From assembly GCA_017744365.1 (NCBI GenBank), contig JAGIBL010000004.1, positions 1 to 64,000 on the forward strand: 64,000 bases of DNA. Direction: 5' to 3'. The notes under the pieces are model-generated. The model made no database searches. It had not been told where the DNA came from and saw only the letters and a program-made list of their open reading frames with translations. The stretch's first letter is position 1. Each line of letters starts with the position of its first letter. Origin of the DNA: Nocardioidaceae bacterium. GTDB lineage: Bacteria > Actinomycetota > Actinomycetes > Propionibacteriales > Nocardioidaceae. Position numbers and translations under genes: made by a program. Below, piece after piece: positions 41,233 to 44,045 of the stretch.

Positions 41233-41239
41233 CAGCATC

Positions 41240-41271
41240 TGCCCGCAGGTAGCCCTGTTTGGCTATGGGCA
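41240..41271. promoter_or_regulatory. Dyad symmetry upstream of the caspase gene
   Basis: TAGCC-CTGTTT-GGCTA is flanked by TGCCC and GGGCA, giving a nested inverted repeat 31 bp before the caspase start and 8 bp after the SDR stop. It may be an operator for the pair or a terminator for the upstream operon. Confidence 0.35.
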
Positions 41272-41301
41272 GGGCCACCTCGGCGCGCGTATGACAAGAA
41301 C

Positions 41302-43074
41302 ATGCAGCGTGCGGGGGTCTTCATCGGCGTGAACCAGACCGGGCAGCTCGCCCGGCTCAACGACGCCGCGGCGAACGCCGGCCGGATGCACCGGTGGGCG
41401 CTGGCGCAGGGCATGGTCGACGGCACCTCGGCGATCCTCATCACCGACGAGACCGAGCCGGTGACGCCGGACCGGATCGCCGACGCGGTGGAGAAGGTCA
41501 TCACCGAGTACGAGCCGGAGCAGCTGATCGTCTACTACGCCGGCCACGGGGTGCTCGCGCGCTCGGCCGAGCAGTGGCTGCTGACCAAGGCGCCGGTGCG
41601 GTCCTCGGCCGCGGTGGACGTGACCCAGACGATCACCGACGCCAAGCGCGGCACGGTGCCGCACGTGGTGGTCATCTCGGACGCCTGCCGGACCGCACCG
41701 GAGGGCATCCAGGCCCAGAACGTGCTGGGCGGCTCGATCTTCCCGAACGTGCTCAGTGGTCAGCAGTGCAAGGTGGACGTCTACTACGCCACCGCGGTGG
41801 GCCGTCCGTCCGCGGAGATCCAGACCGAGGAGGAGTCGGTCAAGAGCTACCGCGGCGTGTTCACCGAGGTGCTGCTCGAAGCGCTCGGCGGCCGGTACCG
41901 GACCGCCTTCCTGCGCCGGAAGAACGGGCAGAAGGACTACTACGTGGGCGTCCGCAAGCTCGAGGACGTGCTCGGCGACGAGGTGCCGCGCAAGATCAAG
42001 GCGAAGCGGCTCAAGGCGCGGTACGCGCAGACGCCGTGGGCCGAGGTGGTCTCCGACGACGACGTCTGGATCTCCCGGCTGGACAAGCTGCCTCCGGGCG
42101 AGAAGAAGAAGGCCACCGCCACGAAGGGCACGGGCAAGAAGGCCGCGCCGCCTCCTCCTCCGGGACACCCGGGCGACGGCGTCGGGATGGCCCCGGCCGA
42201 CCTGCCCGCCGACCTGCCCGCCGAGCTCGCGACCGAGGCCCGGCCGGCACGGACCCGGCCGCGCACCCGGGTCCGCCGCGAGGTGAACTCCGCGGCGCGG
42301 GCGCTCAGTGCCGAGTTCGGCCCGCAGGCCTTCGAGACCGAGTGCGGCGTCAAGGTGCGCGGCGCCCGGATCAGCGCGCACCTGGCCACCGGGATGCACG
42401 TCGAGGAGCTGGACCCCGGCGCGGTGCTCCGGATGTACCCGGACGGGGCGGCCGCGACCGTGGTGCTCGGCTTCGACAACGAGCGGGTGACCGCGCTGCC
42501 GATGATCCCCGGCTTCATCGCCGCCGTGACCTTCGAGGACGACGAGCTGGTCGCCGTGTCCTACGAGCCGTCGGCCAACTCCGGGCGCGCGCGGATGCTG
42601 CGCGACCAGGCGAAGGGCATCCGGGTGCTGCGCGCCCGGGCGGCCGCCGCCAGCGCCCGCGGGGTCTTCGAGCTGCCGGGCCAGGACGACGACCTGGCGC
42701 GTCAGATGCAGCAGGTCAAGAGCATCGACCCGGCGTTCGCGGTGTACGCCGCCTACGGGTACTACGCCCGCGGCGAGGTGGAGCGGATCGAGAGGATGTC
42801 GCACTACCTGCGGATGGACGTGGGCACCACGCTGTTCGACCTGGAGCTGCTCAGCGGCGCGCTCATCGACAAGGGCGTCCGGCCCCGGGACGACACCCTG
42901 CCTTGTACGCCGCTGCTCACCCAGGGCTGGTCGATCCTGCGCGCGCACCGGACCGTGCTGCCGGCCGCGCTGGCCGAGCTCGAGCTGTACGCCACCAACT
43001 CGCTCTGGTCGGCCTACCGGCCCGAGGCGTTCGACCTGTTCGCGGAAGGCCTGAGGAAAGGACAGCTCCGATGA
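41302..43074 (+). CDS. Caspase-like (peptidase C14) protein with C-terminal domain of unknown function
   Basis: 590 residues. The N-terminal 240 residues are a caspase-hemoglobinase fold with both catalytic residues: His82 in VYYAGHG and Cys129 in ISDACRT, plus the first strand GVFIGVN. A Lys-, then Pro/Ala-rich linker (about 268-330) joins it to a C-terminal part (about 331-590) that starts with a beta-rich piece and ends in helices with an AAYGYYARGE segment; I do not recognise it. Such proteases in bacteria are frequent in regulated-death and antiphage systems. The stop overlaps the start of an alpha/beta hydrolase gene (ATGA), so both are made together. Confidence 0.85.
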   Translation: MQRAGVFIGVNQTGQLARLNDAAANAGRMHRWALAQGMVDGTSAILITDETEPVTPDRIADAVEKVITEYEPEQLIVYYAGHGVLARSAEQWLLTKAPVRSSAAVDVTQTITDAKRGTVPHVVVISDACRTAPEGIQAQNVLGGSIFPNVLSGQQCKVDVYYATAVGRPSAEIQTEEESVKSYRGVFTEVLLEALGGRYRTAFLRRKNGQKDYYVGVRKLEDVLGDEVPRKIKAKRLKARYAQTPWAEVVSDDDVWISRLDKLPPGEKKKATATKGTGKKAAPPPPPGHPGDGVGMAPADLPADLPAELATEARPARTRPRTRVRREVNSAARALSAEFGPQAFETECGVKVRGARISAHLATGMHVEELDPGAVLRMYPDGAAATVVLGFDNERVTALPMIPGFIAAVTFEDDELVAVSYEPSANSGRARMLRDQAKGIRVLRARAAAASARGVFELPGQDDDLARQMQQVKSIDPAFAVYAAYGYYARGEVERIERMSHYLRMDVGTTLFDLELLSGALIDKGVRPRDDTLPCTPLLTQGWSILRAHRTVLPAALAELELYATNSLWSAYRPEAFDLFAEGLRKGQLR

Positions 43075-43958
43075 AACGACAGCTCGTGCTCGTGCACGGT
43101 CGCTCCCAGCAGGGCAAGGACCCGGCGGCGCTGAAGAAGCAGTGGGTCGACGTGCTGAAGCAGGGACTGGGCGACCGCACGCTGCCGATCGACGTGGACG
43201 ACGTCCGGTTCCCGTTCTACGGCGACGCGCTCATCGACCTGATGGACGGACGGACTCCCGACCAGATCGTGGTGATGGGGGACGGGGTCGATGCCGAGCA
43301 GCGTGTCTTCATGCAGGAGGTGATGACCGAGGTCAAGGAGCGCGCCAAGCTGACCGATGCCGAGGTGCGCGCCGCGGCGGCCGAGAGCGGCGCGACCCCC
43401 GAGGTGATCGAGCAGGGCCCGCAGAACTGGGGCTGGGTCAACGCCGTCGCGCGCGCCCTCGACCACAAGGGCTTCAGCGGCCAGACGGTCGCGCTGGCCA
43501 CCCACGACGTCTACTGCTACCTGATCGACCAGGGCATCAAGGACACCATCGACGAAGGCGTCGCCCAGGCGTTCACGCCCGGCGTCGAGACCGTCGTGGT
43601 CGGGCACAGCCTCGGCTCGGTGGTCGCGCACGCGGTGCTGAAGGACCGTGGTCAGGACGAGGGCTGGGTGGTGCCGCTGTACGTCACCGTCGGCTCACCG
43701 CTGGCGATCGGCCGGATCAAGCAGTCGATCCTGGTGCCGCGCTGGCCCAAGTGCCTCGACCGCTGGTACAACGCCCGCGACAAGAACGACATCGTCGCGC
43801 TGTACCCGCTGGACGCGGAGCACTTCGGCGTCGGCGACGAGCACGAGATCGAGAACACCGAGGTCGTGAACCAGACGCCCAACCAGCACGGGATCGCCGG
43901 CTACCTCGACAAGCGGGCGGTGGCGAACGTGATCTACGAGGCGCTCGGCGGCGTGTGA
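43071..43958 (+). CDS. Alpha/beta hydrolase (lipase-like) coupled to the caspase gene
   Basis: 295 residues. It opens with the strand LVLVHGRSQQG (oxyanion region), has nucleophile elbow VVGHSLGS (Ser180), a probable acid in RDKNDIVALYP (Asp240) and His273 in NQHGIAGYLD, so a full catalytic triad. The fold resembles serine esterases/lipases of the PGAP1/lipase class. There is no signal peptide, so it acts inside the cell. It might be an effector cleaved or released by the caspase, or the reverse partner; the link is inferred from the 4-bp overlap and shared transcription. Confidence 0.85.
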   Translation: MKRQLVLVHGRSQQGKDPAALKKQWVDVLKQGLGDRTLPIDVDDVRFPFYGDALIDLMDGRTPDQIVVMGDGVDAEQRVFMQEVMTEVKERAKLTDAEVRAAAAESGATPEVIEQGPQNWGWVNAVARALDHKGFSGQTVALATHDVYCYLIDQGIKDTIDEGVAQAFTPGVETVVVGHSLGSVVAHAVLKDRGQDEGWVVPLYVTVGSPLAIGRIKQSILVPRWPKCLDRWYNARDKNDIVALYPLDAEHFGVGDEHEIENTEVVNQTPNQHGIAGYLDKRAVANVIYEALGGV

Positions 43959-43975
43959 GGGAACGCACCACCGCC

Positions 43976-44000
43976 GAGGCGCGGCAGTTGAACGCGCCTC
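43976..44000. terminator. Hairpin between convergent hydrolase and methyltransferase genes
   Basis: GAGGCGCG and CGCGCCTC form a perfect 8-bp stem with a 9-nt loop, 17 bp after the hydrolase stop. There is no T-tract, so termination strength is uncertain. Confidence 0.4.
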
Positions 44001-44045
44001 AGTGCGCTGTGCCTGTTCATCCGGCGCGTCTCGGCGCTGGTCTCG

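Follow-up and report, generated by a model that had tools for sequence, protein, structure and literature searches.

A 64,000-nucleotide stretch of the genome of a Nocardioidaceae bacterium (GCA_017744365.1, contig JAGIBL010000004.1, positions 1 to 64,000, forward strand; hereafter the window) carries, on its plus strand, a gene for a caspase-family (C14) protease of 590 amino acids (41302..43074) followed by a gene for an alpha/beta hydrolase of 295 amino acids (43071..43958). Relatives of this two-gene arrangement were found in the window's phylum, Actinomycetota, and also in Alphaproteobacteria and Bacteroidota, where they are plasmid-borne; three viral contigs carry it too. Caspase and hydrolase are inherited together as a unit that is both accessory and mobile. 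The reading put forward here, tentatively and short of calling it probable, is that the pair is a mobile, protease-switched effector unit in which a lipase-type hydrolase is switched on by a caspase that cleaves after basic residues, and the resulting death or arrest of the cell stops an invader. Genomes and loci are given by handles beginning with G and L, respectively.

Co-inheritance and mobility of the gene pair

Distances between caspase domains were correlated with those between hydrolases (Mantel r 0.93, 18 loci), and the correlation was retained over 15 loci after removal of three near-duplicates (r 0.82); in both cases none of 5000 permutations reached the observed value. The two genes are thus inherited as a unit. 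The first-pass annotation of the window had held that a defence role would be unlikely if caspase homologues rarely neighboured the hydrolase, or if the pair were universally conserved in one genus. Neither pattern was found: in all 14 plasmid records that match the caspase, the gene directly downstream matches the hydrolase, several of these records being near-copies of one another, and the pair was found in one of 24 genomes of the genus.

Caspase matches occurred in seven of 396 genomes sampled across the phylum, one of these being the window genome itself (G000). All three full-length caspases with a complete 3' side belong to a full pair (G200, G221 and G279), an exception in G449 aside; in that genome the caspase is represented by a small piece, a copy that runs off a contig end and another truncated at its start (L086). 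The match in G477 was false, and that in G105 was not read at its locus. L011, from the same search, reads as a LysR-like open reading frame (ORF) and is no relative.

All three viral contigs found by alignment to the caspase carry the pair (L141–L143). In L142 a tail-tube gene follows the pair, and a tape-measure gene was recognized by eye on the other side. Further viral scans added one marginal locus with a narrower alignment (L144), and single-protein scans returned the query loci alone. Two records named 'Acinetobacter phage MD-2021a' also matched. Gene content was read for one of them, L028 (CAKLQH020000003.1), which reads as bacterial chromosome in the stretch concerned (ftsI, mraW, gltX and tRNA genes), and these records were therefore rejected as evidence of phage carriage.

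Neither protein was found in 97 other relatives of the window genome, 23 of them from the same genus, save for two short weak matches each, and degenerate peptide patterns recovered no close relative of either protein in the genome contigs. Scoring covered the best 13 candidates per genome for the caspase in relatives, the best 3 for the caspase in the phylum sample and the best 6 for the hydrolase hidden Markov model (HMM), and weak relatives may escape at this depth.

Synteny was compared in regions around the best methyltransferase match in 20 of the 23 congeners. Twelve regions contain a methyltransferase relative outside this synteny and are uninformative, while eight keep the flanks and lack the pair. 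The order kept is TetR, P450, oxygenase-like, aldehyde dehydrogenase and short-chain dehydrogenase (SDR) genes on the left, and methyltransferase, DEAD helicase, pirin, glycosylase, LrgB and amidase genes on the right (SDR, methyltransferase, helicase and aldehyde dehydrogenase confirmed by Pfam, the remainder named by eye). Of the left flank of L119 only the SDR and aldehyde dehydrogenase genes fall within the stretch, and the stretch of L118 has no amidase gene. The SDR-to-methyltransferase interval, 41233..44045 in the window, is a variable site, which in congeners is either small or occupied by different genes: it spans 7.0 kb in L119 and ~2.7 kb in L120, against 0 to ~660 bp in the other six, and in L123 it holds a HicB-family gene whose neighbour is HicA-like by eye but has no Pfam match. 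The site thus receives differing genes from one species to another. The pair is an insertion here. Absence from relatives, congener flanks without the pair and carriage on viral contigs together support the view that the unit is accessory and mobile.

At the equivalent site, L120 encodes a 553-residue protein (L120:11120-12781) with no assigned function and no PADLOC match.

The caspase and its C-terminal domain

The window caspase consists of a catalytic domain (residues ~1–250), a variable Pro/Ala/Lys-rich linker (~260–330), the disorder of which was judged by eye, and a conserved C-terminal domain (~335–590). Peptidase_C14 (PF00656) matched residues 7–248 with 24.9 bits against a cut-off of 21.4 (E 2e-5). 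The catalytic dyad, correctly placed by the first-pass annotation at His82 and Cys129, is invariant in all 18 aligned two-gene loci, as are Asp49, Asp127 and Asp159. The protein is therefore a C14 family member with an intact dyad and is predicted to be an active protease. The solved structures nearest to it by profile are metacaspase-4 and -9 (residues 1–82) and the MALT1 paracaspase (residues 2–205); Asp127 lies two residues ahead of Cys129, as in MALT1. Metacaspases and MALT1 are relatives that cleave with a basic residue at P1, and the window caspase would likewise be expected to cut after Arg or Lys.

The C-terminal domain had been described as unrecognized, and this held: Pfam returned no family for it even at E 10, Peptidase_C14 being the only match in the whole protein. 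Its ~250 residues are conserved and include the motifs DPxxGxYAAYxY and QGWxxLR. Among the scanned loci, an HMM of this domain recognized caspases alone, namely those of the two-gene loci and two at contig edges in G449.

The linker of the L142 caspase contains two hydrophobic segments.

The hydrolase and its cap

The hydrolase has a nucleophile elbow, GHSLG (GxSxG), at Ser180, which together with Asp240 and His273 forms the triad that had been assigned at first reading; all three residues are invariant in the 18 two-gene loci. Its structure model, with a helical cap at residues ~51–165, resembles phospholipase A2, LCAT and DDHD lipases, and a thioesterase is among the tied matches. The lipase character proposed earlier is thus upheld at the level of fold in the model, and a lipid substrate is predicted, but a shared fold does not fix the substrate. 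No PDB sequence matched the hydrolase profile at E 0.01.

The cap is modelled with least certainty around residues 61–70. A conserved basic cleavage site within it was considered and rejected. In segment 84–122, which covers the loop (about 85–120) where the first-pass annotation had proposed to look for a caspase site, no basic residue is universal across the 18 loci. A basic residue before an 'AGITD' motif recurs, as does Arg/Gln/Lys-Gly at 115–116; as neither is shared by all loci and position 115 is Gln in the window, no cleavage site is claimed.

One hydrolase family with several protease partners

An HMM built from the hydrolase alignment matched 25 of the 396 phylum genomes, including that of the window. 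Of the 24 genomes besides the window's, 17 supplied the 18 hydrolase loci that were read; matches in the remaining seven were weak. Three of these loci are two-gene caspase pairs, three are trypsin–hydrolase fusions and four have caspase or VMAP-M partners, namely L074 and L084 (each by a weak caspase-HMM match), L077 with VMAP-M2 and L087 with VMAP-M18 and Peptidase_C14. The other eight show no recognized protease or VMAP; among them, L075 and L076 have AAA/STAND neighbours.

Plasmid-borne members of the family have a similar range of partners. These include a CHAT protein (L023), a separate trypsin (L035), a fused trypsin (L029), and a VMAP-M2 protein followed by an AAA ATPase gene, with no caspase domain by Pfam (L031 and L032). 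The partner in the L033 plasmid is a giant protein with Peptidase_C14 and a helix-turn-helix/PIN-type region, and those of L030 and L037 are AAA proteins with an N-terminus weakly matching the caspase HMM; L030 adjoins type I-E CRISPR genes. Trypsin and hydrolase are joined in a single chain in L029:6795-8864, L071:5242-7533, L072:1794-3860 and L073:7014-9158. In the VMAP/STAND loci the hydrolase gene comes first and the partner second. Two Agrobacterium plasmids show an exchange of protease at what is apparently the same site, lying between a ParB-like gene and the gene of a large DEAD/DEAH helicase: L021:11983-14615 has a caspase then a hydrolase, and L035:7605-10127 a hydrolase then a trypsin. 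One hydrolase family is thus paired with differing protease classes.

Two hydrolase relatives (L082:686-2734 and L083:6634-8514) end, by eye, in a hydrophobic tail rich in glycine that would put the enzyme at a membrane.

Predicted export in a rhizobial clade

A motif and hydropathy check saw no leader on the window caspase or hydrolase, and the earlier statement that the hydrolase lacks a signal peptide was borne out. Among the 20 two-gene loci, 15 have a leader on neither partner and one could not be judged, its hydrolase ORF being without an N-terminus (L020). The other four, on Bradyrhizobium and Sinorhizobium plasmids (L016, L017, L153 and L154), have leaders resembling those of the twin-arginine translocation (Tat) pathway on both partners. 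These leaders, judged by motif and eye, show RRREVL, TRRDLL or DRREML, a hydrophobic stretch and small residues ahead of the mature start. Annotated starts take in both leaders in L017 and L153, and the annotated hydrolase start of L016 falls within the region of homology, past the leader. L016, L017 and L153 form one clade in both trees, and L154 stands outside the trees. The paired leaders imply a periplasmic form of the switch in this rhizobial clade, with export predicted from sequence.

In L154 (7539-8357, S. medicae ml18 pSymA) the hydrolase frame stops ~310 bases sooner than in its close relative L153.

Defence genes near the pair

Several two-gene loci adjoin known or candidate defence genes. 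Type I restriction and HsdM genes follow the pair on the viral contig L141. On a Hymenobacter plasmid (L018:6778-9834), a protein with an N-terminal caspase and a HamB-like (Hachiman) helicase is encoded close and divergent to the pair. A subtilase and a metallo-beta-lactamase (MBL) protein lie near the pair in L020, the latter matching the LmuA, Avs1a and DRT MBL models of PADLOC. These neighbours are individual examples rather than an enrichment count.

The S8 subtilase and MBL-fold genes, found near the pair on Sinorhizobium plasmids in L020:7958-11403 and, by annotation, in L153:1677-5008, may represent a further protease–nuclease pair.

The window locus

The window lies on contig 10 of a 4.76 Mb genome in 15 contigs. 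Both reading frames are open and located where the first-pass annotation had them, with the 4 bp ATGA overlap that it described at 43071..43074 on the plus strand. That annotation also regarded the locus as a self-contained unit bounded by a dyad-symmetric element and a hairpin. The gene pair stands as a unit, whereas the two flanking elements do not stand as regulatory ones. The imperfect dyad (41239..41280), which lies after the stop codon of the SDR gene and before the start of the caspase gene, folds no better than chance, with 16 of 200 shuffles folding equally well or better (z −1.5), and was dropped as a regulatory element. For the GC-rich hairpin (43967..44041), located where the hydrolase and methyltransferase genes converge, five of 200 shuffles did so (z −2.2). 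Because shuffled sequences fold comparably and no terminator-like or sigma-70-like site was found around the pair, regulatory elements are not established here.

By Pfam, the neighbours in the window are an SDR gene (adh_short) on the 5' side and, on the 3' side, methyltransferase families followed by a DEAD helicase; an aldehyde dehydrogenase was also identified. A PF00656 search of the window genome found one further gene, on the same contig ~120 kb away. This second caspase-family gene (L147, contig 10:160879-161694) lies in an open frame of 1075 residues.

Comparison with known systems

Bacterial gasdermin operons place a protease (caspase, trypsin-like or CHAT) beside a membrane-attacking effector. 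The window pair shares this combination of protease and predicted membrane-attacking partner, and differs in having an enzyme of lipase fold instead of a pore former.

The closest precedent for the pairing is in VMAP systems. According to Kaur et al. (2020, eLife, PMC7159879), a caspase of a VMAP system always has an alpha/beta-hydrolase gene next to it and seems to operate together with the hydrolase, and stand-alone peptidase genes occasionally lie beside VMAP genes. The follow-up paper (PMC8195603) lists alpha/beta-hydrolases among predicted membrane-lipid effectors. The hydrolases are of the same family, the window-family HMM finding those beside VMAP-M genes in L031, L032, L077 and L087. 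However, the window caspase has no VMAP-M match, its flanks are SDR and methyltransferase genes rather than MoxR or vWA genes, and it has a conserved C-terminal domain of its own and precedes the hydrolase on the 5' side. It is also related to the caspases of EACC1-caspase systems (Kaur et al. 2020; NF047832), with 41.9 bits falling below the cut-off of 140, but there the window differs in its hydrolase neighbour and in its 5' gene, which is the short-chain dehydrogenase kept in eight congener regions and not EACC1.

A precedent for activation is offered by canu, in which, according to the 2025 Science paper (PMC12799240), a caspase activates a partner pro-nuclease; the same paper describes pairing of the nuclease family with trypsin and other proteases, and forecasts further protease-activated enzyme classes. 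Canu and the window pair are alike in that the gene of an enzyme lies downstream of that of the caspase, and in that the partner family is found elsewhere with trypsin and other proteases. Canu has an Ig-like fold after the caspase; for the C-terminal part of the window caspase, Pfam gave no hit that would bear on such a fold. In contrast to canu, the window partner is an alpha/beta hydrolase and not an MBL-fold nuclease, and there are two genes and not three; the hydrolase model also has no disordered active-site insertion, and activation in the window pair would be by analogy.

Because VMAP pairing (PMC7159879) and canu activation (PMC12799240) are in print, the earlier description of the module as undescribed was too strong. 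A literature search, with supplements and most subscription papers outside its scope, found no recognized stand-alone caspase–hydrolase pair with this C-terminal domain. What is new here is that the pair stands alone and has a conserved C-terminal domain of its own; the principle of pairing is already known.

Proposed mechanism and alternatives

In the proposed mechanism the caspase would be kept idle until a trigger reaches its C-terminal domain, which would receive it either by itself or together with a factor from host or phage. The active caspase would then cut after Arg or Lys, and its main substrate would be the partner hydrolase, whose active site would be opened by a cut within or close to the helical cap. 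The freed hydrolase, acting as a phospholipase or acyl hydrolase, would attack membrane lipids and kill or arrest the cell, stopping the phage or other invader. Since both partners bear Tat-like leaders in the rhizobial clade, the whole reaction would take place there in the periplasm. The hydrolase is proposed as the common substrate because this would explain most simply how unrelated classes of protease can replace one another beside a single hydrolase family. Pairing, co-inheritance, protease exchange, a shared compartment, relatives with basic P1 specificity, the lipase fold, mobility, defence neighbours and the canu precedent are counted in support of the mechanism.

Several observations weigh against it. 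The Tat pattern comes from one clade and is therefore probably one event, though both genes joined in it, and the hydrolase frame of one plasmid pair, L154, ends early. The caspase of L086 (G449), which is cut by the contig start and matches the C-terminal domain weakly, has no hydrolase on its 3' side. Eight of the 18 hydrolase loci have no recognized protease or VMAP gene adjoining or fused, the neighbours of six of them having been outside the Pfam run, and an Acinetobacter hydrolase relative has no annotated protease gene beside it. The cap is mostly ordered helix in the model, unlike the disordered active-site insertion reported for gated nucleases, and its segment 84–122 contains no basic residue common to all 18 loci. 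The SDR, aldehyde dehydrogenase, methyltransferase and DEAD helicase neighbours in the window do not form a defence island, and of seven neighbour proteins run through PADLOC three had no match (two in L017 and one in L120).

The state of the cap leaves room for the two enzymes to act jointly without cleavage of the hydrolase, either with the caspase as executioner and the hydrolase in parallel or with a hydrolase product or binding event switching on the caspase. Co-inheritance and the shared compartment point to a joint task and leave its direction undecided, and the gene order of the VMAP/STAND loci would also suit such an arrangement. It is nevertheless unlikely, as the exchange of protease classes is explained most simply with the hydrolase as common substrate and canu provides a precedent for activation. 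Frequent location on plasmids and viral contigs would also be expected of a toxin–antitoxin-like maintenance module of plasmids and prophages, in which the caspase restrains a toxic hydrolase by degradation until it is blocked or lost, and the HicB-family gene with its HicA-like neighbour at the same site in one congener fits this as well. However, the caspase is large and bears a conserved 250-residue extra domain, unlike a simple antidote, and the single-chain fusion of trypsin and hydrolase suits activation or regulation better than continual degradation, which makes this role improbable.

If the Tat-bearing rhizobial forms showed the typical place of action, the pair would serve in competition or in another exported role, for example in an envelope-acting stress or lysis programme. 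The leaders of these four loci, the hydrophobic linker segments of L142 and the glycine-rich tails of L082 and L083 agree with this, but it is distinctly improbable given that 15 of 20 two-gene loci are leaderless on both proteins, with one not judgeable, and that several loci adjoin known defence genes. The immediate neighbours in the window (SDR, aldehyde dehydrogenase and methyltransferase) would be compatible with ordinary metabolic or regulatory genes of the genus and no conflict role. Against this, these neighbours are conserved in eight congener regions without the pair, it was found in one of 24 genus genomes, and outside the phylum it recurs on plasmids and viral contigs; this pattern of presence and absence makes such a role very improbable indeed.

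Beyond activation of the hydrolase by the caspase in the window itself, it is possible, if doubtful, that the loci define a class of protease-gated lipases. One hydrolase family would then be the executioner for caspase, CHAT, trypsin (in trans or in cis), VMAP and STAND-caspase switches, the stand-alone pair being the mobile minimal form, the rhizobial switch being periplasmic and the C-terminal domain being a new sensor. If this is true, the class would parallel gasdermin operons and gated nucleases with lipids as its target, and proteolytic switching in bacterial immunity would gain membrane-lipid hydrolysis besides pores and nucleases. The Tat-bearing clade would then represent an immune or death switch acting outside the cytoplasm.

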